28,489 nucleotides of DNA. Origin: Gallionella sp. Its GTDB lineage: Bacteria > Pseudomonadota > Gammaproteobacteria > Burkholderiales > Gallionellaceae. Where the stretch lies: positions 1-28,489 of the forward strand of contig JAUYGW010000229.1 in the NCBI GenBank assembly GCA_030690245.1, given 5' to 3'. The translations under genes were made by a program, and so were the position numbers. Under the pieces are notes generated by a model. That model worked only from the letters and a program-made list of their open reading frames with translations. It was not told the DNA's origin and searched no databases. Shown here piece by piece: positions 15,725 through 28,489 of this stretch. Within the stretch, counting starts at the first letter, position 1. Each line of letters starts with the position of its first letter.

Positions 15725-15906
15725 CCTGCTGATGCAAAAGCGAAGAATCTTGCAGCAGGTTGAATCATTCGACCGGAATATCTAGACCATCCATTACAAA
15801 CAACTTTAGCTTGTTTGTGCAATTCATTGCTTTTTAAGCATATTTGTTTTGCTTTAACTTTCTGCGCTAACTCCTTGTCCTATAAAGAAAAATCCTGTTT
15901 TTTTGC

Positions 15907-15935
15907 TTGACCTTCTGGTTTTTTTTTAATATAGT
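15907..15935 (+). promoter_or_regulatory. Sigma-70-type promoter of the dcw cluster
   Basis: TTGACC at 15907-15912 and TATAGT at 15930-15935 are spaced 17 bp. The -10 element overlaps the first MraZ repeat, and transcription should begin near 15942. This is the expected strong promoter ahead of mraZ. Confidence 0.7.
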
Positions 15936-15968
15936 GGGCTTAAGTGGTAAAAAGTGGGTAAAAGTGGG
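15934..15968 (+). promoter_or_regulatory. MraZ operator (four direct repeats)
   Basis: GTGGG, GTGGT, GTGGG and GTGGG begin at 15934, 15944, 15954 and 15964, an exact 10-bp period with 5-nt AT-rich spacers. MraZ of E. coli and other bacteria binds TGGG-type repeats with this spacing just upstream of its own gene and represses the cluster. Here the first repeat overlaps the -10 box, and the fourth merges with the GGGG that serves as ribosome binding site, so bound MraZ would block promoter and early transcript. Confidence 0.88.
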
Positions 15969-15976
15969 GTTAAAGG

Positions 15977-16423
15977 ATGTTTCAGGGAGCGGCGCAACTT
16001 AATCTGGATAGCAAAGGCAGGCTCGCGATACCGGCGCGGCATCGCGACATGCTGCTCGCGAATTGCGCGGGCAATCTGGTGCTGACTGCCGATGCCGACG
16101 GTTGCCTGCTGATGTATCCGCAGCCAGAGTGGCAACCGATCCGCGACAAGTTGCTCAAGCTTTCCGCGCTCAACCCAAAAATCCGTGCCTTGCAACGCCG
16201 CCTGATCGGTTATGCCGAGGATGTGGTGATGGATGGCGCCGGGCGCGTGCTGATTTCGCCGGCCTTGCGCAGCTATGCCGCGCTGGACAAGCGCGTGATG
16301 CTGGTTGGCCAGGGTAATAAATTCGAATTGTGGGACGAGCCGAAATGGCAGGCGCAGCAGGAGGCCGGTTTGTCGTTCATGGAAGGTGAGTTGCCGCCGG
16401 AGCTAGAAGGTTTTTCTCTGTAA
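15977..16423 (+). CDS. mraZ: Transcriptional regulator MraZ
   Basis: The 148-residue protein has two AbrB-like swapped-hairpin domains (about 1-55 and 75-125). The first opens MFQGAAQLNLDSKGRLAIPARHR, with the conserved D-KGR-IP, and the second has the DGAGRVLISPALR counterpart. MraZ forms a ring-shaped multimer that binds the repeats just upstream and represses the division cluster. ATG 15977 has GGGG 7 nt upstream. It is the first gene of the cluster, and the next gene is separated by 140 bp that hold a dispersed repeat. Confidence 0.97.
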   Translation: MFQGAAQLNLDSKGRLAIPARHRDMLLANCAGNLVLTADADGCLLMYPQPEWQPIRDKLLKLSALNPKIRALQRRLIGYAEDVVMDGAGRVLISPALRSYAALDKRVMLVGQGNKFELWDEPKWQAQQEAGLSFMEGELPPELEGFSL

Positions 16424-16430
16424 AACCTTT

Positions 16431-16555
16431 GCAGAACGTAGCGAGCGCAGCCGAGGCAAGGCAAAAAAATGGTGAGGAACCGGAGTTTACAAAATGCTAA
16501 ATGAGGATTTTGAGCCTTTTTTAACGCGGCATCGGCAAGCGCAGCAGTCATGCAG
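16431..16555. repeat. Probable dispersed intergenic repeat between mraZ and rsmH
   Basis: The stretch contains GTAGCGAGCGCAGCCGAGGC, then a GGAACCGGAGTTTACA...TAAATGAGGATTTTGAGCC block with partial internal symmetry, then AACGCGGCATCGGCAAGCGC. I recall closely similar intergenic elements in Nitrosomonadales genomes, but cannot confirm copy number. It does not look protein-coding and leaves the rsmH ribosome binding site (AGAGG) intact. Confidence 0.45.
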
Positions 16556-16563
16556 AGGTTTTT

Positions 16564-17499
16564 GTGAGTGAGGGCTTGGCCCATACCACCGTTTTGCTGA
16601 ATGAAGCTGTTGAGGCGTTGGCCATCAAGCCAGGCGGCGTCTATGTGGATGGCACGTTCGGGCGCGGCGGGCACAGCGCGCTGATACTGGAGCGGTTAGG
16701 CGACACAGGCCGGTTGATCGCGCTGGACAAGGACCCGGCGGCGGTGGCGGCAGGCGAGGCATGGCGTGATGCGCGTTTTTGCATGGTGCATCGCGGTTTC
16801 GCGCAACTGGCGGAGGTGTTGCGCGAGCAGGGGGTGGCGAAGGTGGACGGCATTCTGCTCGACTTGGGCGTGTCGTCGCCGCAACTGGACGAGGCGGCGC
16901 GCGGTTTCAGTTTTCGCTGCGATGCGCCGCTGGATATGCGCATGGACACCAGCAGCGGGATGACCGCAGCGCAGTGGCTGGCGACGGTGGATGAAGGTTT
17001 GCTGACGGAGGTGATACGTGATTACGGCGAAGAACGGTTTGCTAAGCAGATTGCAAGGGCGGTTGTTGCGGCGCGCGCAATCGAGCCCATCCACACCACG
17101 CGGCAGCTCGTCGAGCTGGTTGGCAAGACGGTACGTACCCGCGAAGCCGGGCAGAATCCGGCAACGCGCACCTTTCAGGCTATACGGATTTATCTCAACG
17201 GGGAACTCGAAGAGCTTGCGCGGGTGCTCCCGGAATGCGTGACGCATCTCAAGACCGGGGGGCGTCTGGCGGTGATCAGTTTTCATTCGCTGGAAGACCG
17301 CATCGTGAAGCATTTCATGCGCGACATGGCCGAGGGCGACAAGCTGCCGCGCGGCGTGCCGATCCGCGCCAGCGAGGTGCCGCAGGGCAGGCTGCAGCTG
17401 GTCGGCAAGGCCGTGCGCGCGGCTGGGGCGGAAGTGCAGGCCAACCCGCGCGCGCGCAGCGCGGTGATGCGCGTGGCGGAGCGCGGCGATGTGGCGTAG
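16564..17499 (+). CDS. rsmH: 16S rRNA (cytosine(1402)-N(4))-methyltransferase RsmH (MraW)
   Basis: RsmH methylates N4 of C1402 in 16S rRNA with S-adenosylmethionine, in the cytoplasm. The 311-residue protein shows the full signature: [13 protein letters not shown] at the N-terminus, [12 protein letters not shown] loop (about 32-40), [30 protein letters not shown] (about 98-120), [12 protein letters not shown] and [15 protein letters not shown] (about 239-253). The start is GTG at 16564 with AGAGG 5 nt upstream; GTG starts are not rare for this gene. The ftsL start overlaps its last codons by 11 nt. Confidence 0.97.
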
Positions 17500-17803
17500 C
17501 GATGTGATGAACGGGGGCGCGTTGAACGCGCTGCTGCTGGCGGCGGTAGTGATCTGTGCGCTGAGCGTGGTCACTTCGCAGCACAAGGCGCGCAAGCTGT
17601 ATATCGAGCTGCAGAAACAGAAGGAGTTCGCGCAGCAAATGGACGTGGAATGGGGGCAGTTGCAATTGGAGCAAAGCACCTGGGCTACGCCGGCGCGGGT
17701 GGAAAAGATTGCGGCGCGCCAGTTGCAGATGCAGTTGCCCAGAAACGGGCAAGTTCAATTTATACGGGTAGAGCCTAACGGCCATATAGATAAACAACCA
17801 TGA
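17489..17803 (+). CDS. ftsL: Cell division protein FtsL
   Basis: The 104-residue bitopic protein has a short cytoplasmic tail, one transmembrane helix (about 11-30, [20 protein letters not shown]) and a periplasmic coiled coil (about 33-75, [20 protein letters not shown]...) ending in a [18 protein letters not shown] motif. FtsL binds FtsB and FtsQ and helps activate FtsWI at the septum. ATG 17489 overlaps rsmH by 11 nt and has GGAG 7 nt upstream; a second in-frame ATG at 17507 has no ribosome binding site. The stop overlaps the ftsI start as ATGA. Confidence 0.92.
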
Positions 17804-19530
17804 ATTATGCGGCCAGCGCACATCCAGACATCACGGCAGAATTGCCCGGATGGCGCGCCACCGCGTTATTTGTGGCGCTGCTGGCCGGGCTGGCCGGGCT
17901 GGCCGGGCGCGGCGCCTACCTGCAAGTCATGCACGATGATTTCCTGCAGGAGAAAGGCAACGCCCGCTACAGCCGTGTAATCGAAGTCAGCGCGCATCGC
18001 GGCATGATCACCGACCGCAACGGCGAGCCGCTTGCGGTCAGCACGCCGGTGGAATCGGTGTGGGCCAGTCCGGCGGACGTGGAAGCCGATAGCCAGCAGG
18101 TAAAACAACTGGCGCAGATACTCGGCATGAACGTCGAAGAGGTGAAAAATCGCCTGTCCGACATGTCGCGCGATTTCGTTTATCTCAAGCGCCACCTGCC
18201 TCCCGATCAGGCCGGAAAAGTGGTGAGCCTCAATCTCCCCGGCATTTCTTTGCAACACGAATATCGCCGCTACTACCCGGCAGGCGAAGAGGCCGCGCAG
18301 ACGCTGGGTTTTACCGGGCAGGACGACAACGGGCAGGAAGGGCTGGAACTGGCCCTGCAGGAACGGCTGGCCGGCAAATCCGGCAGCCAGCGAGTCATCA
18401 AGGATCGGCGCGGGCATATCGTCGAGGATGCAGGCAGCCTGCATGCGCCCAAGCCGGGCAGCGATATCGCGCTGAGCCTCGACAGCAATGTGCAGCACCT
18501 CGCCTATCGCGAACTGGTCGATGCGGTGAAGCAGCATAAGGCCAAGGCCGGCGCGGTAGTTGTTCTCGATGCGAAGAGCGGCGAAGTGCTGGCGCTCGCC
18601 AACTATCCCGCCTACAACCCCAATAACCGCAGCAAAGTCGGCAGCCAGGCGATGCGCAACCGCGCCATTGCCGACCTGTTCGAGCCGGGCTCGACGATGA
18701 AGCCGTTCACTGTCGCAACCGCGCTCGAGCAGGGCAAGGTGCGTCCGGAAACCGTCATCAACACCGAGCACGGCGTGTACGCGGTGGGCAACAAAAAAAT
18801 CCACGACTCGCACCCGGAATCGACGCTGACCGTCGCGCAGGTCATCCAGAAGTCCAGCAATATCGGCGCGGCCAAGATTGCGTTGTCGATGGAGCCCGAG
18901 ACGTTGTGGCAAAGCCTGGCGGATAGTGGCTTTGGCGCGCGGACCGGCAGCAATTTCCCCGGTGAAGCGCCGGGAAAATTGCGCGACCCAAAAACCTGGA
19001 GGCCCATCGAGCAGGCCACCATGTCCTATGGGCACGGCATATCGGTGAACCTGCTGCAATTGGCGCGCGCCTATACGATTTTTGCCAACGATGGCGAGTT
19101 GAAACCGGTTTCGCTGCTGAAACTGGATGCGCCCGCAGTCGGAAAAAAAGTGTTTTCCGACAGCACGGCACATGCGCTGCGCGGCATGCTGGAATTGGCG
19201 GTGCAGCCCGGCGGCACGGCTCCATTGGCGCAGGTGGCCGGCTACCGCGTGGCGGGCAAGACCGGCACCGCACATAAACTGGAAGGCGGCCGATACGTCA
19301 ATCGCTATGTCGCCTCTTTCGTCGGGCTTGCGCCGGCATCGAATCCGCGCCTGATCGTGGCGGTGATGATCGACGAGCCGGACAACGGGCAATACTACGG
19401 CGGGCTGGTCGCCGCGCCGGTATTCAGCAAGGTGGCGGGCGCGGCGCTGCATGCGCTCAATGTGCCGAACGATGCGCCGCTGGACAATGTCATCGCGCCG
19501 CCGGCGGACATCATCAAGGAGGAGGCGTGA
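17800..19530 (+). CDS. ftsI: Peptidoglycan D,D-transpeptidase FtsI (PBP3)
   Basis: FtsI crosslinks septal peptidoglycan and acts with FtsW. The 576-residue protein has one N-terminal transmembrane helix (about 22-42), a pedestal domain (about 60-220, with RG-I-DRNG at the start) and a transpeptidase domain. The catalytic motifs are complete: STMK with Ser298, SSN at 352-354 and KTGT starting at Lys487. The membrane helix contains a perfect triplet of GGGCTGGCC-type 9-bp repeats coding LAGLAGLAG. It overlaps ftsL by 4 nt and shares one base with the murE start. Confidence 0.97.
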   Translation: MNYAASAHPDITAELPGWRATALFVALLAGLAGLAGRGAYLQVMHDDFLQEKGNARYSRVIEVSAHRGMITDRNGEPLAVSTPVESVWASPADVEADSQQVKQLAQILGMNVEEVKNRLSDMSRDFVYLKRHLPPDQAGKVVSLNLPGISLQHEYRRYYPAGEEAAQTLGFTGQDDNGQEGLELALQERLAGKSGSQRVIKDRRGHIVEDAGSLHAPKPGSDIALSLDSNVQHLAYRELVDAVKQHKAKAGAVVVLDAKSGEVLALANYPAYNPNNRSKVGSQAMRNRAIADLFEPGSTMKPFTVATALEQGKVRPETVINTEHGVYAVGNKKIHDSHPESTLTVAQVIQKSSNIGAAKIALSMEPETLWQSLADSGFGARTGSNFPGEAPGKLRDPKTWRPIEQATMSYGHGISVNLLQLARAYTIFANDGELKPVSLLKLDAPAVGKKVFSDSTAHALRGMLELAVQPGGTAPLAQVAGYRVAGKTGTAHKLEGGRYVNRYVASFVGLAPASNPRLIVAVMIDEPDNGQYYGGLVAAPVFSKVAGAALHALNVPNDAPLDNVIAPPADIIKEEA

Positions 19531-21143
19531 TGTTCTCCCTTGAACAGTTAAACGGCTTGAACGTAAAAATCACGCGCCTGGTGACCGACAGCCGCGCGGT
19601 GCGGCAGGGTGATACCTTCGTCGCTTATCCGGGCGAAAGAACGGACGGCCGGCAATTCATCGCGCAGGCGATCGCGCAAGGCGCGAATGCGGTGATCTAC
19701 GAAGCGCAGCATTTCGCTTGGGATGCCGCCTTGCAAATACCCAACCTCGCGGTGAGCGACCTGCGCCACAAGGCGGGGTGGCTGGCGGATGAGGTATATG
19801 GCACACCTTCCGAAAAGCTGTGGCTGGTCGGAGTCACCGGCACCAACGGCAAGACTTCCACCAGCCACTGGATCGCGCAAGCGCTGAACGATGCCGGGAA
19901 GAAATGCGCGCTGATTGGTACCCTTGGTAATGGATTCCTGGGGGCCAACGGTTTTGCCGGTGCGCTGCGGGCCAGCGCCAACACCACGCCGGACGCGCTT
20001 CTTGTGCATGGCCTGCTCGCGGATTATCTGCGCGCCGATACGCAGGCCGTGGCGATGGAAGTGTCCTCGCACGCGCTGGTGCAGGGGCGGGTGAACGGCG
20101 TGCGTTTCGATGTGGCGTTGCTGACCAACCTGAGCCGCGACCATCTCGATTATCACGGCGACATGGAAAGTTACGCGGCGAGCAAACGCAAGCTGTTCGA
20201 TTGGCAGCAACTTAAATTTGCCGTGGTCAATCTCGACGACGCGTTCGGCGCGGAACTGGCGGAACAATTGCAGGATGGTGCGTTCCCCTCTCCTCAATCC
20301 TCTCCCGCAAGCGGGAGAGGAGGCGAACGAGAAGTGGTTCAAGCAGGTATTTTGTCGCAAGACAAAAACTCGCAAAAGCAACATTCAATCCCCGAGGTGA
20401 TCGGCTACGGTCTGGGGGATGCCGCGTTGCAACTGGCCGAGCGTCTCGGGCTGCGCATGGTGTATGGCCACCTCGCGGAGATGAGCGCGCAGGGCTTGCG
20501 GCTGGACGTGCATTCGAGCTGGGGCGGCGCGCAGATCAACAGCACGCTGGTCGGCCGCTTCAATGCGGCGAATTTGCTGGGCGCGCTGGCGGTGTTGCTG
20601 GTGAGCGGCATCGAACTGGGCGAGGCGGCGCAGTCGCTGAGCAGGGTGCAGGCGGTGGCCGGGCGGATGCAACGCTTGGGCGGTGCAGCACAGCCGACGG
20701 TCATCGTGGACTATGCGCATACGCCGGATGCGCTGGAGAAAGTGTTGCTGGCGTTGCGCGAGGTCGGCGCATCGACTGGCGGCAGGCTGATCTGCGTATT
20801 CGGCTGCGGCGGCGACCGCGATCGCGGCAAGCGCGCGATGATGGGATTGGTTGCCGAGAAGTTTTCCGACCATTGCATCGTCACCAGCGACAACCCGCGC
20901 AGCGAAGAACCGCAGCACATCATTGCCGAAATTCTCGGCGGCATGACTGCCCGCAACCACGAGGTTGTCATCGAGCGCGCTGCGGCCATCGAGCGCGCCA
21001 TCGGCTTGGCGCGGCAATGCGACACCGTGCTGCTGGCGGGCAAGGGGCATGAGGATTATCAGGAAATCAACGGCGAGAAGCATCCGTTCAGCGATGTGGC
21101 GGTTGCCGAGGGCGCGCTGCGGGCATGGAGGGCGCCGGCATGA
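19530..21143 (+). CDS. murE: UDP-MurNAc-L-Ala-D-Glu:meso-diaminopimelate ligase MurE
   Basis: MurE adds meso-diaminopimelate to the UDP-MurNAc dipeptide using ATP. The 537-residue protein has the substrate domain (1-100), the P-loop TGTNGKT (Lys108) and the C-terminal DNPR motif (454-457), which marks a diaminopimelate rather than lysine enzyme. I chose ATG 19530 (TGATG overlap with the ftsI stop, GGAGG upstream); a GTG one codon earlier is possible. The protein is about 40 residues longer than usual because residues about 250-289 (FPSPQSSPASGRGG..., SQDKNSQKQH) are translated from an inserted palindromic repeat at 20281-20390. It lies in the central domain between QLQ and VIGYG, probably a surface loop. 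Confidence 0.95.
   Translation: MFSLEQLNGLNVKITRLVTDSRAVRQGDTFVAYPGERTDGRQFIAQAIAQGANAVIYEAQHFAWDAALQIPNLAVSDLRHKAGWLADEVYGTPSEKLWLVGVTGTNGKTSTSHWIAQALNDAGKKCALIGTLGNGFLGANGFAGALRASANTTPDALLVHGLLADYLRADTQAVAMEVSSHALVQGRVNGVRFDVALLTNLSRDHLDYHGDMESYAASKRKLFDWQQLKFAVVNLDDAFGAELAEQLQDGAFPSPQSSPASGRGGEREVVQAGILSQDKNSQKQHSIPEVIGYGLGDAALQLAERLGLRMVYGHLAEMSAQGLRLDVHSSWGGAQINSTLVGRFNAANLLGALAVLLVSGIELGEAAQSLSRVQAVAGRMQRLGGAAQPTVIVDYAHTPDALEKVLLALREVGASTGGRLICVFGCGGDRDRGKRAMMGLVAEKFSDHCIVTSDNPRSEEPQHIIAEILGGMTARNHEVVIERAAAIERAIGLARQCDTVLLAGKGHEDYQEINGEKHPFSDVAVAEGALRAWRAPA
20281..20390 (+). repeat. Palindromic insertion in frame within murE
   Basis: A perfect 10-bp inverted repeat with an AA centre occupies 20299-20320 (arm CCTCTCCCGC). 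A second perfect hairpin, TTTTGTC-GCAA-GACAAAA, follows at 20350-20367. CCTCTCCCGCAAGCGGGAG-type palindromes are widespread intergenic repeats in bacteria. Here it is translated as a Ser/Pro/Gly/Lys-rich stretch unlike the rest of MurE. Exact borders are uncertain. Confidence 0.75.
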
Positions 21144-22666
21144 TGCTGCTCTCGCAAGCCGCGCAAGCGCTGAATGGCCGGCTGGTCGGGCCCGACGTGC
21201 GCTTCGCCGCGGTCTCGACCGATAGCCGGAAGATCAAGGCCGGTGATTTGTTCATCGCGTTGCGCGGCGAACATTTTGACGGCTACGAGTTCGTCGCAAC
21301 CGCTCTGCAATCTGGGGCAGCAGCAGTGCTGGTCAACGCGGACAGTTACAGGATCGAGGATCGAGGAGCGAGGAGTGAGCAAGAGGCCGAGAGCGAAGCT
21401 CCCCACTCAATCCTCAATCCACAATCCTCGATTCTGGTCGTAGAAGATACGCGTCTCGCGCTGGGACAACTCGCGGCGTACTGGCGCAAGCAATTCGACA
21501 TTCCACTGGTGGCGATTACCGGCAGCAACGGCAAGACCACGGTGAAGGAAATGCTTGCCGGAATTTTGCGTTTGGCGGCAGGGAGCGATGATGCGGTGCT
21601 GGCCACCAGGGGCAATCTCAACAACGACATCGGCATGCCCCTGACCCTGCTGCAATTGAATGCGCAGCATCGCTATGCCGTGATCGAAATGGGCATGAAC
21701 CACCCCGGCGAAATCGATTACCTGACGCATCTCGCCTGCCCCGACGTCGCGCTGGTCACCAATGCCAGCGGCGCGCATCTGGAAGGGTTGGGTTCGGTGG
21801 AAGCGGTGGCGCTTGCCAAGGGCGAGATATTTGCCGGGCTCCAGCCGCACGGCACCGCAGTGATCAATGCCGACGATGGCTATGCGCCGTTGTGGCGGAT
21901 ACTCGCCGGTACGTGCGCGTTGCTTGAATTCGGCCTGGGCAGTTCTATCACTAACGTGTCGGAGACGGAACGGGAAGCCGACGTGTCCGGACAATGGCAG
22001 CCGCATGAAGCCGGGCTGCGTCTGGACGCCCAGACCCCATCGGGAAATTTCAGCGCGGATTTGCAAGTACCCGGCGCGCACAACGCGCGCAACGCATTGG
22101 CGGCAACCGCCGCGGCGATCGCGCTGAAGGTGCCGCTGGAAATCATCGCCGCAGGTCTGGAGAAATTCGGCGGCGTGGCCGGACGCTTGCAGCGCAAGGC
22201 CGCGCGGCATGGCGCGGTCCTGATCAACGATACCTATAACGCCAACCCTGCCTCGATGCGCGCCGCAATCGGCGTTCTGGCACAGGCTGGAGGCAGGCGT
22301 GTGATGGTGATGGGGGATATGGGTGAGCTGGGCGATGACGCCGCGATGCTCCATGCCGAGATCGGCACCGAGGCGCGCAGCGCCGGGATCGAGAAACTTC
22401 TTGCGCTGGGCGCGTTGAGCGTCAACGCGGTGCGCGCCTTCGGTTGCGGCGCGGAACATTTCGAGCGCATCGAGGATTTGCAGAAAGCGTTGGAAGATGA
22501 GCTGGACGTGGATACCACCGTGCTGGTGAAGGGCTCGCGCTTCATGAAAATGGAACGCGTGGTGCAGTACCTGGAGAGTGGTGAGTGGAAAGTGGGGGGT
22601 GGGAAACCCGCCCCGCACTCACCACTTTCCACCCCCCACTTACCAAAGGAAAAAAAATGTTGCTAG
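21140..22666 (+). CDS. murF: UDP-MurNAc-tripeptide:D-Ala-D-Ala ligase MurF
   Basis: MurF adds D-alanyl-D-alanine to the UDP-MurNAc tripeptide, the last cytoplasmic ligase step. The 508-residue protein has an N-terminal domain, the P-loop TGSNGKTT (Lys132), [11 protein letters not shown] and VMGDMGELG motifs. I chose ATG 21140 (ATGA overlap with murE, GGAGGG 7 nt upstream) over 21125. It is about 50 residues longer than usual for two visible reasons: residues about 71-99 ([17 protein letters not shown]...) come from a heptamer inverted repeat, and the last 28 residues after QYLES ([10 protein letters not shown]..., ending KEKKCC) come from a second heptamer element. The altered end makes murF overlap mraY by 10 nt. 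Confidence 0.95.
21350..21435 (+). repeat. Heptamer tandem/inverted repeat in frame within murF
   Basis: The left arm (21350-21379) is four AGGATCG-type 7-bp units. The right arm (21406-21435) is the reverse complement in CTCAATC-type units and pairs with it at 24 of 30 positions. The 26-bp loop is also translated. The insert sits in a loop of the N-terminal domain before [13 protein letters not shown]. Confidence 0.85.
22574..22643 (+). repeat. Heptamer tandem/inverted repeat at the murF-mraY junction
   Basis: Four G-rich 7-bp units run from 22574 to 22601 (GAGAGTG, GTGAGTG, GAAAGTG, GGGGGTG). Four C-rich units run from 22616 to 22643 (CACTCAC, CACTTTC, CACCCCC, CACTTAC), the same words on the other strand in altered order. 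A GGGAAACCC loop lies between. The element is translated as the tail of MurF. Confidence 0.85.
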
Positions 22667-23742
22667 CGTTCGCTCAGTGGCTCGCCCAGGACATCAGGTT
22701 CTTCAGCGTGTTCAATTACATCACGCTGCGCGCGGTGCTGGCGGCGATGACCGCGCTGTTCATTTCATTTATGGTCGGGCCGGCGATGATCCGCAAGCTG
22801 ACCGCCTACAAGATCGGGCAATCGGTGCGCAGCGACGGGCCGCAGACGCATCTGGTCAAGGCCGGCACGCCGACGATGGGCGGCGCGCTGATCCTCACCT
22901 CGATCGCGATCACCACGCTGCTGTGGGGCGACCTGTCCAACCATTACGTGTGGGTGGTGCTGCTCACCACGCTGGGCTTCGGCGTGATCGGCTGGGTGGA
23001 CGACTACCGCAAGGTGGTACACCGCAACCCCAAGGGGCTGTCAGCCAGGGCAAAAATGTTCTGGCAGTCCATCATCGCGCTGATGGTCGGCGTCTACCTG
23101 TGGAATACCGCGACGCTGCCCGCGCAGACCGAACTCATCGTGCCGTTCCTGAAGTTCCTGATATTCCCGCTTCCGGCCTTCCTGTTCGTCGTGCTGGCCT
23201 ATCTGGTCATCGTCGGCAGCAGCAATGCGGTGAACCTGACCGACGGGCTGGACGGGCTGGCGATCCTGCCCACCGTGATGGTGAGCGGCGCGCTGGCAAT
23301 CTTCGCCTATGTCGCGGGCAATGCGGTGTTCTCGAAGTATCTCGGCATCCCCTACATCCCCGGCGCGGGCGAACTGGCGGTGTTTTGCGGCGCGCTCGCC
23401 GGCGCGGGGCTGGCCTTCCTGTGGTTCAACGCCTATCCCGCCGAAGTGTTCATGGGCGACGTCGGCGCGCTGTCGCTCGGCGCGGCGCTCGGCGTGGTGG
23501 CGGTGATCGTGCGCCAGGAGCTGGTGCTATTCATCATGGGCGGCGTGTTCGTGGTCGAGGCGGTCTCGGTGATGATCCAGGTGGCCTCGTTCAAACTCAC
23601 CGGTAAACGCGTGTTCCGGATGGCGCCGCTGCACCATCACTATGAGCTGAAGGGCTGGAAGGAAACGCAGGTCGTGGTCAGGTTCTGGATTATCACCATG
23701 CTGCTGGTCTTGATTGGCCTGGCGACGTTGAAGTTGAGATAG
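22657..23742 (+). CDS. mraY: Phospho-N-acetylmuramoyl-pentapeptide transferase MraY
   Basis: MraY transfers phospho-MurNAc-pentapeptide to undecaprenyl phosphate to form lipid I at the inner membrane. The 361-residue, ten-helix protein has the expected length and motifs: GTPTMGG (about 68-74), [19 protein letters not shown] (about 190-202), DVGALSLG and [13 protein letters not shown] 22657 has AAAGGA 7 nt upstream; an in-frame ATG at 22585 would add repeat-coded residues and is rejected. The start lies inside the last codons of murF, an overlap caused by the repeat at the murF end. Confidence 0.97.
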
Positions 23743-23752
23743 GAGGGAGCTC

Positions 23753-23845
23753 GTAGCGGGTAGCCAGTGGCTAGTAGCTAATAAGGAGCGCGCTTTGTGC
23801 GCGGCAATTAAAAGCTACAAGCTACAGGCTACAGGCTACAAGCTT
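23753..23845. repeat. Heptamer tandem/inverted repeat between mraY and murD
   Basis: The left arm is GTAGCGG, GTAGCCA, GTGGCTA, GTAGCTA (23753-23780). The right arm is AGCTACA, AGCTACA, GGCTACA, GGCTACA, AGCTT (23813-23845). Between them a perfect hairpin CGCGC-TTTGT-GCGCG lies at 23789-23803. The element fills nearly all of the 115-bp gap but leaves the murD ribosome binding site GGAGG at 23849 intact. Confidence 0.88.
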
Positions 23846-23857
23846 ATTGGAGGTAGA

Positions 23858-25249
23858 TTGAAACAATGGGCTGACAAAAATGTACTGGTGCTCGGTCTCG
23901 GTGAGACCGGGTTGTCGCTTGTGCGCTGGTTGAGCGCACAGGGCGCGCTCCTGCGCGTCGTGGACAGCCGCAGCGAGCCGCCCGGTTTGGCCGAAGCCGG
24001 CCGGCATGTCGCAGCCGGGCAGATTTTTTGCGGCGCATTCGGCGATGCGCTGCTCGAGGGCATCGACCTGATTGCGATCAGCCCCGGCGTGCCGTTGTCC
24101 GATCCATTTGTGCAACGCGCTGCCGCGCGCGGCATTCCCATCGTCGGCGACATCGAGTTGTTCGCGCAACAGCTCAGGATTCAGGATTCAAGATTCAGGA
24201 CTAAAGTCATCGCGATTACCGGCGCGAACGGCAAGACCACCGTGACCAGCATGGTGGAGCATCTGTGCAAGGCAGCTGGCAAGGATGCGGTCGCGGCGGG
24301 CAACATCTCACCGGCGGTGCTGGATGTGGTGCTGGCGCGCGGCGCAAACCAGCCGGAAATATGGGTGCTGGAATTGTCCAGCTTCCAGCTTGAAACGACC
24401 GCGACGCTGAATGCCGATGCGGCGACGGTGCTCAACATCAGCGAAGATCACCTCGACCGCTATGCCGGCATCGATGAATACGCGGCGGCCAAGGCGCGCA
24501 TTTTTACCGGCAGCGGGGTGCTGATTCTAAATCGTGACGATGCGCGCAGCATGGCCATGGCGTTGTCCGGTCGCGAGGCCGTAACCTTCGGACTCGATGT
24601 GTCGTCTCACGAACGGGATTTCGGCGTGGAGCGGGAGCGCGGCGATATCTGGCTAATGCAGGGCGATCAGCGGCTGCTCAAAGTCAGCGATTTACAGATC
24701 GCCGGAATGCACAACGTCGCCAACGCATTGGCCGCGCTGGCGCTGTGCCGTGCGATCGATTTGCCGATGCCGGCGTTGCTCGAAGCGTTGCGCAGCTTCA
24801 GGGGGTTGCCGCATCGCGTGGAGCGCGTGGCCGAGATCGACGGCGTGGTCTATTACGATGATTCCAAGGGAACCAATGTCGGCGCGACAGTCGCCGCGCT
24901 GGAGGGCTTGGGACGCAAGGTGGTGCTGCTGGCCGGCGGCGAAGGCAAAGGGCAGGATTTCGCGCCGCTCAAGCCGGCAGTGATGCGGCATGCGCGCGCG
25001 GTGGTGCTGATCGGGCGGGATGCGCCGCTGATCGCGTCGGCGCTGGAAGGTTGCGGCGTGCCGCTGCTGCATGTCAAGAACATGAACGACGCGGTGCGGC
25101 AGGCCGCGCAACTCGCGCAAGCGGGCGATGCGGTGCTGCTGTCGCCCGCTTGCGCGAGCTTCGACATGTTCCGCAATTATGCGCATCGTGCCGAGATCTT
25201 CGTGGAAGCGGTGCATGAGCTGATCAAGGAGGCCGCATGGTCTCGCTGA
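23858..25249 (+). CDS. murD: UDP-MurNAc-L-alanine:D-glutamate ligase MurD
   Basis: MurD adds D-glutamate to UDP-MurNAc-L-alanine. The 463-residue protein opens [19 protein letters not shown] (domain 1 Rossmann-like), has the P-loop TGANGKTT (Lys126), the LELSSFQLE and [10 protein letters not shown] motifs and the C-terminal [13 protein letters not shown] chose the rare TTG start at 23858 with GGAGG 4 nt upstream; the first upstream ATG frame runs through the heptamer repeat (SYKLQATGYKL) and is rejected. Residues about 107-115 (RIQDSRFRT) are translated from a 28-bp heptamer array at the domain 1-domain 2 boundary. The stop overlaps ftsW by 13 nt. Confidence 0.94.
24175..24202 (+). repeat. 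Four heptamer units in frame within murD
   Basis: CAGGATT, CAGGATT, CAAGATT and CAGGACT follow each other without gap. They are translated as part of [11 protein letters not shown], just before the VIAITG strand that leads to the P-loop. There is no opposite-strand arm. The 28-bp length is not a multiple of three, so flanking bases must have changed too. Confidence 0.85.
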
Positions 25250-26448
25250 CGTCCGCTATGCAGGCCGATGCACGGGAGCCGCGCCGTCCTTACGCCGTCA
25301 AGACGCGTACCCGTCCGCCGCAGGCGCAGTTCGACGAATTGCTGATCTGGGTACTGATTGCGCTGCTCGCGCTCGGGCTGGTGATGGTGTATTCCGCCTC
25401 GATCGCGACGGCGGAAGCCGGGAAATTCACCGGCTACCAGCCGGCCTATTATCTGCTGCGGCATGGTGTGTTCATCGCAGTGGGATTGTTCGCCGGGCTG
25501 CTCGCCTTCCAGGTGCCGGTGCAGTTATGGCAGAACTATGCGCCCTACCTGTTCCTGACCGGGGCAGTGTTGCTGATCTTGGTGCTGATCCCGGGCATCG
25601 GGCGCGAAGTCAACGGCAGCCGCCGCTGGCTGTCGCTGTTCGTCGTCAACTTGCAGCCTTCGGAACTGATGAAACTGTTCGCCGTGCTGTATGCCGCGAG
25701 CTATACGGTGCGCAAGGCGAAGGTGAAGGGCACCTTCGTCAAGGCGTTCTTGCCGATGTTCGCGGTGATGGCGCTGGTCGGCAGCCTGCTGCTGCTGGAA
25801 CCGGACATGGGCGCGTTCGTGGTGATCTGCGTGATTGCGCTGTGCACGCTGTGGCTGGGCGGTTTCAATCTCAAGGTGTTTGCCGGGCTGGTCGTGACCT
25901 TGCCGCTGGCGTTTGCCGCGCTGATTCTTTCCTCTCCGTACCGCATGCAGCGCGTCATCGGCTTCATGGACCCGTGGTCCGACCCGTACGGCAAGGGCTA
26001 CCAGTTGAGCCATGCGCTGATCGCCTTCGGGCGCGGCGAATGGTTCGGCGTGGGTCTGGGCGGCAGCGTGGAAAAACTGTTCTACCTGCCGGAGGCGCAT
26101 ACCGATTTCCTGATGGCGGTGATCGCCGAAGAGCTGGGGCTGGCCGGCATCACGGCGGTCATCGCGCTGTTCGCGCTGTTCGTGGTGCGCGCCTTCCAGA
26201 TCGGCCGCCATGCCGCATTTCTCGATCGCAACTTTTCCGCGCTGACCGCGCAGGGCATCGGCGTGTGGCTCGGCGTGCAGGCGATGATCAACATCGGCGT
26301 AAACATGGGCGTGCTGCCGACCAAGGGGCTGACCCTGCCGTTCCTCAGCTTTGGCGGCAGCGGCCTGGTGGTGAACTGCATCGCCGCTGCGGTGCTGCTG
26401 CGAGTCGATTATGAAAACAGACGAGTTGCGCGGGGGCTTCCGGTATGA
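25237..26448 (+). CDS. ftsW: Septal peptidoglycan glycosyltransferase FtsW
   Basis: FtsW polymerises septal glycan from lipid II and works with FtsI. The 403-residue SEDS-family protein has about ten transmembrane helices after a basic N-terminus (about 1-40), and shows [16 protein letters not shown], the [29 protein letters not shown] loop and [18 protein letters not shown] 25237 has AAGGAGG 5 nt upstream and overlaps murD by 13 nt. The last ten codons ([10 protein letters not shown] and stop) recur 116 bp downstream with synonymous changes only. Confidence 0.97.
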
Positions 26449-26564
26449 GCACACACTTTCACAACACGTCTGTTTCGGTGAAGGCTAACTTGCACAAGCA
26501 AGTTAAGCCCCGCAGGGGCGGCCGGAACCAAAACAGACGGGTTGCACGGGGATTGCCGGTATGA
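26414..26564 (+). repeat. Duplicated ftsW tail flanking a hairpin element
   Basis: The 35 bp at 26414-26448 and 26530-26564 match at 30 positions. Both can be read as [10 protein letters not shown] followed by TGA, and all five differences are synonymous at codon level (CGA/CGG, GCG/GCA, GGG/GGA, CTT/TTG). The second copy is in no complete gene. Confidence 0.85.
26467..26539. repeat. Nested hairpin element between ftsW and murG
   Basis: CGTCTGTTT at 26467 pairs with AAACAGACG at 26531 (second ftsW tail) or with the same word at 26415 in ftsW itself. Inside lie a perfect AACTTGC-ACAA-GCAAGTT hairpin (26487-26504) and GCCCC-GCA-GGGGC (26507-26519). The whole could fold as a multi-branched structure in RNA. 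Confidence 0.75.
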
Positions 26565-26574
26565 AAAGCATATT

Positions 26575-26660
26575 AGCCACGGATGAACACGGATACACAC
26601 AGATAAACACCGAACATGATGGTGGGGTTATCCGTGTTTCATCCGTGTTCATCCGTGGCT
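26575..26660. repeat. Inverted repeat of 10-bp units before murG
   Basis: AGCCACGGATGAACACGGAT at 26575-26594 has its perfect reverse complement at 26641-26660. Each arm is built from GGATGAACAC-like 10-bp units. Such CCACGGATGAACACGG elements are common intergenic repeats in environmental bacteria; this is from memory. It ends 22 bp before the murG start. Confidence 0.85.
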
Positions 26661-26682
26661 CAATTCTGTTTGAGGTTATGCG

Positions 26683-27747
26683 ATGAGCCGCTCCATACTC
26701 ATCATGGCAGGCGGCACCGGCGGGCACATCATGCCGGGGCTGGCGGTCGCCGACATCCTGCGTTCGCGAGGCTGGCAGGTAACGTGGCTGGGGGCGCCGG
26801 GCAGCATGGAGGCCGAACTGGTGCCGAAGCATGGTTACGGCATGGCTTGGGTGCGCTTCTCCGGCTTGCGCGGCAAAGGGATTCTGCGCAAATTGGCCCT
26901 GCCGTTCAATCTGCTGACCGCCCTGGGGCAGAGTGCAGCGGCGATCTTCCGCCACCGTCCCGATGTGGTGCTGGGTATGGGCGGTTACATCACTTTTCCG
27001 GGCGGCCTGATGGCGGCTTTGCTGCGCCGTCCGCTGGTGATCCACGAACAGAACTCCATCGCCGGGTTGAGCAACAAGGTTCTGGCGCGCATCGCGCAGG
27101 AGACACTGAGCGGTTTTCCCGATGTGCTGCCGAAGGCAGTCTGGTGCGGCAACCCGGTGCGCGGCAGCATCGCCGGATTGGCCGATCCGCAGATACGTTA
27201 TGCGGCGCGCAGCGGCAGGCTGAACCTGCTGGTCGTGGGCGGCAGCCTCGGTGCGAAGGCGCTCAACGAAACCCTGCCGCAAGCGCTCGCGTTGCTGCCG
27301 GCCGAGGTACGTCCGGAGGTGGTTCATCAAACCGGCAAACAGCATTTTGCGGCCGTGCAACAGCTGTACCGGCAGGCCGGCGTGCAGGCCGACATTCAGC
27401 CATTTCTCGAAGACATGGCCGGCAGCTACGCGAATGCCGACCTGGTGATCTGCCGCGCCGGCGCATTGACCATCGCGGAGCTCGCGGCGGCGGGCGTGGC
27501 AAGCATCCTGATCCCGTTCCCGTTTGCGGTGGACGACCACCAGACACACAACGCGCGCTTTCTCTCCGAGCGCGGCGCGGCGGTCTTGCTGCCGCAGAGC
27601 GAGTTGAGTGCGGAGAAGCTGGCGCAGTTGCTGCGCAGATTGGATCGCGAAAAATTAGCGGCGATGGCGCAGCAGGCGCGCGGTGTGGCCAAGGCCGATG
27701 CGGCACAACAAGTCGCGCAGGTTTGCGCAGAACTGGCTGAAGCATGA
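26683..27747 (+). CDS. murG: UDP-GlcNAc:lipid I GlcNAc transferase MurG
   Basis: MurG adds GlcNAc to lipid I to make lipid II on the inner face of the membrane. The 354-residue GT-B protein has the N-terminal [14 protein letters not shown] loop (about 10-23), [23 protein letters not shown] (about 123-134), the [10 protein letters not shown] motif of the C-terminal domain (about 186-195), [11 protein letters not shown] and [17 protein letters not shown] 26683 has GAGG 7 nt upstream. It is the only gene of the cluster with sizeable gaps on both sides, and both gaps are occupied by inverted repeats, so it may depend on readthrough or on its own promoter. Confidence 0.97.
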
Positions 27748-27767
27748 ACTTCAGGGACAATGCTATT

Positions 27768-27839
27768 TACCACGAAGAACACGAAGATCACGAAGGGTTT
27801 TCGGTGTTCTTCTTCGTGTGCTTCGTGCTCTTCGTGGTA
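27768..27839. repeat. Inverted repeat of 9-bp units between murG and murC
   Basis: CACGAAGAA, CACGAAGAT and CACGAAG units at 27768-27795 are mirrored at 27812-27839 with three mismatches in 28. The 16-bp loop contains GGGTTTTCGGTG. This is the common ACCACGAAGAACACGAAG type of intergenic repeat. It leaves 17 bp before the murC start. Confidence 0.85.
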
Positions 27840-27856
27840 CAGATTGGGTTTTCGAG

Positions 27857-28489
27857 ATGAAACATAAAGTCAAACACCTCCATTTCGTCGGCATCGGCGG
27901 CTCCGGCATGAACGGCATCGCCGAAGTGCTGCTGAACCTCGGCTTTCAGGTCAGCGGTTCCGACCTCGGCGAGAATGTCGCCACGCAGCGCCTCAGGCAG
28001 CTCGGCGCGACGGTGAATCTCGGCCATGCCGAACAGCATCTCACCGACGCCGATGCGGTGGTGGTTTCCACCGCCGTCAAGGCAGACAATCCCGAAGTGG
28101 TCGCGGCGCGCGCGCGCCGCATCCCGGTGGTGCCGCGCGCGATGATGCTCGCGGAGCTGATGCGCCTGCGCCAGGGCATCGCGGTGGCGGGCACGCACGG
28201 CAAGACCACCACCACCTCGCTGGCCGCCAGCGTGCTGGCCAAGGGCGGTTTCGATCCCACCTTCGTGATCGGCGGCAAGCTCAACAGCAGCGGCGCCAAT
28301 GCCAGGCTCGGCACCGGCGAATTCATCGTCGCCGAGGCCGACGAATCGGATGCGTCGTTCCTGTATTTGCAGCCGATCATCGCGGTGATCACCAACATTG
28401 ACGCCGATCACATGGAGACCTACGGCCATGATTTCGGCAGGCTCAAGCAGGCATTCGTCGACTTCGTCGAGCACCTGCCGTTCTACGGC
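27857..28489 (+). CDS. murC: UDP-N-acetylmuramate:L-alanine ligase MurC (3' truncated by window edge)
   Basis: MurC adds L-alanine to UDP-MurNAc. The first 211 residues are present and the frame is open to the edge. They show the Rossmann-like start [19 protein letters not shown], the P-loop [10 protein letters not shown] (about 111-120), [26 protein letters not shown] and [13 protein letters not shown], all as in MurC. ATG 27857 lies 17 bp after the inverted repeat with only a weak GAG as ribosome binding site, so initiation may be poor or depend on mRNA folding. No in-frame insertion is seen in this part, unlike in murD, murE and murF. Confidence 0.96.

Follow-up and report, generated by a model that had tools for sequence, protein, structure and literature searches.

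Dispersed heptamer-repeat palindromes in the division cluster of a Gallionella genome

The division cluster in a 28,489-nt stretch of Gallionella sp. DNA (contig JAUYGW010000229.1 of assembly GCA_030690245.1; hereafter the window) carries short repeat elements, four of which are built of 7-bp units. The explanation that we think probable, if only narrowly, is that the heptamer elements are dispersed palindromes resembling miniature inverted-repeat transposable elements (MITEs), spread in trans and kept at tolerated places, with some exchange of their words in place. Judged by sequence comparison, they would be of a known kind, that of the GGGAATC arrays of Xanthomonas; what appears to be new are the word groups, the cores between the arms and the different words at orthologous sites. 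Many bacteria have an excess of heptamer repeats for which no cause is generally accepted. The genus studied here offers, at orthologous sites of one essential cluster, empty, filled, decayed and chimeric states as well as different words, so that slippage, transposition and unit exchange become directly testable against each other with close strains. Moreover, essential enzymes bear non-conserved peptides born from heptamer-repeat DNA.

Results

The window comprises a single contig of a draft genome of 2.34 Mb (357 contigs, 82.5% complete), referred to below as the source genome; G-numbers denote comparison genomes and L-numbers comparison loci or contigs. In MurD, a Gallionella metagenome-assembled genome reaches 70% identity, in keeping with a Gallionella-like organism. 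An earlier note on this DNA had listed seven repeat elements between 20281 and 27839, and all seven are present (Table 1): four have 7-bp units, one has 9-bp and one 10-bp units, and the murE insert is a plain palindrome. The single architecture that the note ascribed to them, tandem units followed by the same units inverted, holds for five of the seven; the murD array runs in one orientation and the murE insert is not tandem. They fall into several classes. That the words are unrelated is not supported: they follow a shared G-rich pattern and their groups recur across the genome and the genus.

At a lag of 7, the MurF-linker, mraY/murD and murD elements reach 22-25 matches of 28, with at most 17 in shuffles of the window, and the murF/mraY array stays below 22 of 28. 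Self-complementarity exceeds the shuffle maximum of 47 in the 10-mer (93) and mraY/murD (51) elements, equals it in the 9-mer element, and does not exceed it in the murF/mraY (39), murE (38) and MurF-linker (32) elements. Taken one by one, the last three do not stand out from the shuffles; it is their periodicity, the number of elements and the comparison with relatives that carry the case. An inverted repeat at 25107-25163 in murD also scored above the shuffles (52) and was dropped, being conserved MurD sequence by reading. No Rfam family reached its gathering score in 15900-28489; three matches below it, to animal and plant microRNA families, were taken as chance.

Period 7 is the commonest repeat period in the sampled part of the source genome, followed by period 9. 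Counting arrays with 18 of 21 matches at a lag, for periods 4 to 20, we found in 229,718 bases 13 at period 7, 6 at period 9 and 5 at period 18, a single one at each of periods 6, 12 and 14, and none at the remaining periods, against shuffles with 0 at every period except 0.5 at period 18; half of the sampled contigs had been picked for 9-mer matches, so that these densities are not unbiased. Similar elements are abundant elsewhere in the genome, a point on which the earlier note had let its claim of an invaded cluster depend. In 197,410 bases of cluster loci from the genus there were 24 arrays of period 7 and 11 of its harmonic, period 14, with 0 at other periods. In 78 loci outside the genus set (1.28 Mb), period 7 was again the most frequent, with 15 arrays, ahead of period 14 (7) and period 6 (4); no other period exceeded 3.

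The heptamer words of 75 arrays align to NG(A/T)GGA(T/A/C), with 4.02 bits against 2.73 after shuffling of letters (standard deviation 0.08, which is too small because the arrays are not independent). The commonest units are of GAGGATC, CAGGATT, GAGGATT, GAGGACA and GTGGTAA types; the Xanthomonas type, GGGAATC or GGGANTN, is not among these. By hand, and at an agreement of 6 of 7 letters (looser in a few cases), the words sort into about eight groups, F1-F8, which recur across genome and genus. In 22 elements the words of the two arms agree in 5.82 of 7 letters, compared with 4.15 for shuffled partners (standard deviation 0.21; maximum 4.95 in 5000 shuffles). The pairs are also polar: of the 25 opposed pairs that could be classified, 24 begin with the G-rich arm (19 vs 1 in the genus, where one pair called same-strand and two unclear by purine count were set aside, and 5 vs 0 elsewhere), and the single pair of reverse polarity, by reading, joins two unrelated words.

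Copies of these elements are dispersed in some genomes and missing from most. Queried with the murF element, the source genome gave 30 matches, G010 53, G008 13 and four others 5-6 each, while 12 of the 19 genomes gave none. With the mraY/murD element as query, 15 of the 19 gave none; the matches were 15 in G009, 9 in the source genome, and 3 and 1 in two more genomes. Many of these matches are limited to a single arm, and in some cases a palindrome was counted on both strands. A second full-length copy of the mraY/murD element in the source genome is 81% identical. All 20 retrieved F1 places, mostly the longest matches (9 in the source genome, 11 in G010), read as opposed heptamer arms around a core, and in 10 of them a core resembling AAAAGCGGAGCAGTGGTTTT, in one orientation or the other, can be recognised at the level of 5% of each core's own shuffles. 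The core pattern TTTCGGYGNAGGC was rejected as not specific, with matches in 17 of 19 genomes and in controls; a longer core pattern found 3 places in 2 of the 19. Among 299 genomes of the phylum, an F1 heptamer pattern occurs in 5, with 40 matches in the source genome against 4 for the reversed control.

Comparison with relatives revealed sites in empty and filled states. We aligned 16 relatives of the same genus; two further genomes of the genus had no clear MurF. Of the 16, 13 lack the MurE insert, as do all three order-level relatives aligned, which supports the proposed invasion of the cluster; at its site G017 has a related insert, G007 another insert and G005 a few residues. The two-armed MurF-linker element is shared with G013 alone among the 16, and one-armed heptamer arrays occupy the same linker in five other species, of the same word group in G008 and of others in four. 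The spacer between mraY and murD could be read in 16 genomes of the genus; it is short in 5 (32-77 nt) and longer in 11 (93-275 nt), and in the filled junctions that were read the element, heptamer or plain palindrome, starts at most about 10 nt past the mraY stop (5 nt in the window). Outside the cluster, a junction that is empty in G017 is occupied by a heptamer element in the source genome, by a plain palindrome in G008 and by a 9-mer-like element in G007. Among same-strand gene pairs, elements lie nearer the 3' end of the upstream gene in 8 of 9 cases for 9/10-mers, 33 of 43 for other palindromes and 2 of 3 for heptamers, only three of which were usable as the crude open reading frame caller missed the cluster genes.

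Several elements are translated in frame. The earlier note had located them inside ligases, and they do lie in MurE, in the linker and tail of MurF and in MurD; further in-frame elements occur in DNA polymerase III alpha (DnaE) of the source genome, where the F1 element (L084:9557-9655) is absent from G017, and in MurB of relatives. The solved MurF (4cvk, 1gg4) and MurD (7sy9) sequences do not contain the inserted segments, so that neither these nor the order-level relatives have what the earlier note had considered fatal to its claim, the same segments in distant relatives. The MurE and MurF inserts are predicted to be disordered: in the models, a predicted local distance difference test (pLDDT) score below 50 was obtained for MurE residues 254-285 (in the insert), and for MurF residues 82-94 (linker) and 487-513 (tail), as well as 1-3 and 274-281.

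Orthologous sites carry different words. With 15 of 20 matches required, a level at which one shuffle of 357,713 bases gave 3 arrays, the cluster loci of 17 genomes, some of them incomplete (the window's contig itself ends in murC), hold 71 arrays at 13 sites in 54 species-site combinations, distributed over 15 of the 17 genomes. A loop of MurB bears arrays in 9 species, of at least 5 word groups (GAGGATC, GGGATTT, GTGGAAA, GGGAAGA and GTGAAAC types), with a nearly identical border where read. Of the 15 arrays in four stretches of 300 kb each, 7 fall in the division cluster, which makes up 6% of the sequence (binomial 1.4e-5), an enrichment weakened by shared descent and by the starting point of the analysis.

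Words appear to change even where the core stays. One core is flanked by GGACAGA-type arms at all 5 places in G005, at one of two places in G010 and in G017; in G013 the same core has AATCAGG-type arms with one old-type unit remaining, and at the other G010 place it has one old-type arm and one ATCCTCA-type arm.

A Sulfuricella metagenome-assembled genome (L108:7864-8336) also has heptamers at the MurD linker, but of other words. Its arrays occupy two positions that are filled in the window as well, one ahead of murD and one some 300 nt into the sequence matched to murD.

Table 1 Repeat elements and their host genes in the window
Feature	Position	Strand	Description	Match
murE insert	20280..20393	+	In-frame insert of 38 codons; CTCTCCCGC-AAGC-GGGAGAG palindrome (CTCTCCCGCAAGCGGGAGAG palindrome); no 7-mer array	
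MurF-linker element	21347..21437	+	Group F1; GAGGATC-type heptamers in both arms; translated between domains 1 and 2	
murF/mraY element	22572..22645	+	Group F5; GTGGNGA-type heptamers in both arms; MurF C-terminal tail and junction	
mraY/murD element	23748..23846	+	Group F6; GTAGCTA-type heptamers in both arms	
murD array	24172..24202	+	Group F2; four CAGGATT heptamers, part of the translated MurD linker; inverted arm absent	
Host-matched hairpin	26414..26564	+	ftsW 3' end, inverted copy, core GGTGAAGGCTAAC..GTTAAGCC..CCAAAAC, second copy of the ftsW end	
ftsW/murG element	26575..26660	+	Palindromic, 10-bp units; CACGGATGAA units, inverted	
murG/murC element	27768..27839	+	Palindromic, 9-bp units; CACGAAGAA units, inverted	
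murE	19527..21143	+	Host gene	NCBIfam TIGR01085
murF	21125..22666	+	Host gene	NCBIfam TIGR01143
murD	23861..25249	+	Host gene	NCBIfam TIGR01087

NCBIfam matches confirm murE, murF, mraY, murD, ftsW and murG in the window.

Discussion

In the elements of the 7-bp class, each terminal inverted repeat consists of about 3-5 tandem G-rich heptamers, with a short core joining the arms. As non-autonomous elements they may spread through machinery acting in trans, for which Y1 transposases are a candidate, and selection would retain them where they are nearly harmless, past stop codons and in flexible enzyme loops, the positions in which they are observed. The division cluster would then be a repeated landing area within the genus. 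The word at a given site would differ between species because sites are refilled and because heptamer units are exchanged between elements, possibly by template switching or short-homology conversion; two chimeras are observed. The different element classes at one junction, together with the genome-specific amplification, favour fresh insertion, and the shared core with exchanged words, together with the constancy of the MurD linker, favours exchange in place.

Several observations weigh against such a spread. No transposase could be tied to a heptamer element, and no target-site duplication was seen in the empty and filled pairs, which are pairs of species and not of strains. The F1 core is recognisable in only half of its places, by a consensus drawn from those same copies and hence descriptive. 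One-armed arrays occur, in MurD and in five MurF linkers, and outside the cluster four well-assembled relatives hold only 2 arrays each per 300 kb. The MurD linker measures 63 nt in 13 of 17 genomes, array or no array, and its arrays, in six species, have four units in one phase and belong to three word groups; insertion gives no account of this combination.

It is here that replication slippage enters, which we rate as unlikely. Under this alternative nothing moves: slippage by 7 nt makes the arrays, template switching at hairpins copies the inverted arm, and words arise locally and drift. Such a process is consistent with the MurD linker as just described, and in particular with G009 and G011, whose linkers both encode DLRLTT, with perfect heptamers in G011 and only synonymous differences in G009. 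The half of the F1 places with no recognisable core likewise fit it, and a polymerase contact as the setter of the 7-nt period is an idea cited in the accessible part of a work on heptamer repeats (MacGregor 2015, PMC4679880). Against slippage stand the two-armed occurrence of one word group at many places of one genome, the single core common to separate places and the non-random words, the same groups being met at unrelated sites. Tentatively, and as an idea that we also consider doubtful, heredity may lie in form: site, border, 7-nt period, unit number and polarity would be inherited, and the word of both arms rewritten from other arrays. Rewriting as the sole explanation was not preferred because two-armed multi-copy elements exist.

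In another alternative, which we regard as quite unlikely, the heptamer elements are relatives of repetitive extragenic palindromic (REP) sequences and are moved by Y1 (REP-associated, RAYT) transposases. The source genome has 5 Y1 matches over the cut-off and also GTAG-headed palindromes. Among the 17 genomes of the genus with cluster data, G002 and G006 are the only ones without any Y1 match and also the only two without a cluster array, even at a looser cut, a coincidence expected 1 in 136 times if the two were unrelated and noticed afterwards; these are only two genomes, however, and they may lack mobile DNA in general. G011, moreover, has arrays and a Y1 match only below the cut-off. By reading, neither a GTAG nor a CGTC tag stands beside the arms of the F1 (20) and F4 (7) copies, whose ends are of CAGGAT and CAGAGG types; F6 words do contain GTAG. 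REPs too lie after genes and inside genes of replication and repair, according to the accessible text of Di Nocera et al. 2013 (PMC3733652).

Maintenance of the elements as RNA or DNA hairpins at gene ends, for protection of mRNA, coupling of translation or termination, is in our judgement very unlikely. Their 3'-end position and the ability of the arms to form hairpins agree with it, and the stem at ftsW described below, which is of another class, covaries. The same junctions, however, are empty in relatives or switch between 7-mer, 9-mer and palindrome, several elements are translated inside enzymes, and no Rfam family reaches its gathering score in the interval searched. An artefact of assembly or binning can hardly be entertained: the source genome is an incomplete draft in many contigs, but relatives whose genomes were assembled separately, several to 99-100% completeness, have elements at the same sites.

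MITEs are small, dispersed elements with terminal inverted repeats. The heptamer elements are likewise short, multi-copy and dispersed, with terminal inverted repeats and no gene of their own seen, but they differ in being tandem-built and degenerate, and neither a parent transposon nor a target duplication turned up in the sequences examined, whole genomes not having been scanned for long-spaced arms. The palindromic elements of Rickettsia (RPE) are in-frame palindromic inserts in essential genes and are not known to be tandem-built; the likeness of the present elements to them is one of description. The short tandemly repeated repetitive (STRR) sequences of cyanobacteria such as Calothrix are tandem heptamers in several words, as are the present elements, but we know of no inverted arms with a core, nor of placement in genes, among them. 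STRR heptamers are also cited in the accessible part of Rehm et al. 2015 (PMC4692102).

That paper brings the closest parallel. In the part of it available to us, two Xanthomonas genomes hold 186 and 183 GGGAATC arrays, of which 11% and 7% lie inside genes, and convergent pairs at close distance number 70 and 75; the prominent repeats of two species sit at different genes, and a Nostoc heptamer reads GGGGA(C/T)T (PMC4692102). As far as that text goes, those arrays and the present elements are alike in consisting of tandem G-rich heptamers, mostly of four units, in opposed pairs, in lying nearer the upstream gene and in being partly intragenic, and the excess of heptamers over other periods is also seen here. 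The Xanthomonas study, by the same text, followed one word; here there are about eight groups, cores between arms and differing words at orthologous sites. REPs of the GTAG and CGTC families are similar as small palindromes after and inside genes, with several families per genome, in the accessible text on them (PMC3733652); unlike REPs, the present arms are tandem heptamers and the F1 and F4 copies bear no such tag. TAACTGA repeats are described in the available part of MacGregor 2015 (PMC4679880), and different words at orthologous sites are not reported in the accessible portions of the three papers (PMC4692102, PMC3733652, PMC4679880). The earlier note had known of no description that combines heptamer repeats with in-frame palindromic inserts in a betaproteobacterial division cluster. 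Our literature search found none for such elements in a cluster of this kind, and a search with the unit sequences gave only one unrelated paper; inverted heptamers as such are known from Xanthomonas, as far as the text at hand extends (PMC4692102).

Other elements

The 9-mer and 10-mer elements have a distribution of their own. A two-unit 9-mer pattern gave 94 matches in the source genome (overlaps counted) and 0 for the reversed control, and a stricter one occurs in 27 of 299 genomes of the phylum, namely the source genome and 26 of one family in another class. Contigs of a family of another class (L260-L279), which may belong to the iron-oxidising Zetaproteobacteria, bear similar 9-mer and 10-mer elements, with heptamers in one contig examined, and a contig of another family (L265) has clustered AAAGTGCTGGCACTTT palindromes with similar spacers.

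The element at 26414-26564, at ftsW-murG, is of another class than the heptamer elements and has the appearance of an insertion copying the gene in which it sits. Its core reads GGCTAA..TTA-GCC and its second copy of the ftsW end has diverged. Across six species, chosen for equal length, a 14-pair stem is 98.8% paired, compared with 38-45% in slid controls; both sides have changed in 5 pairs, a number reached by 2 of 500 shuffles, and the covariation score is reached by 0 of 500. The element is present with other spacing in G011 and G012, and 8 of the 16 genomes examined have no such stem. The same plan recurs at the start of another gene of the source genome, which we take to be galU, and in G023, a genome of another family, it is repeated in tandem at ftsW-murG. 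When triple copies matched to their host were sought, in the order sense, inverted, sense, 3.44 Mb gave 18 matches and shuffles 0; by reading, two are of the ftsW/galU type and the rest are plain palindromes or other repeats. At the mraY-murD junction of G009 (L068), a related core stands beside a duplicated mraY 3' end, and in G007 (L341) a short AGGCTAAC..GCCGAAGCCAAA core is flanked on either side by a duplicate of the start of a gene, presumably radC.

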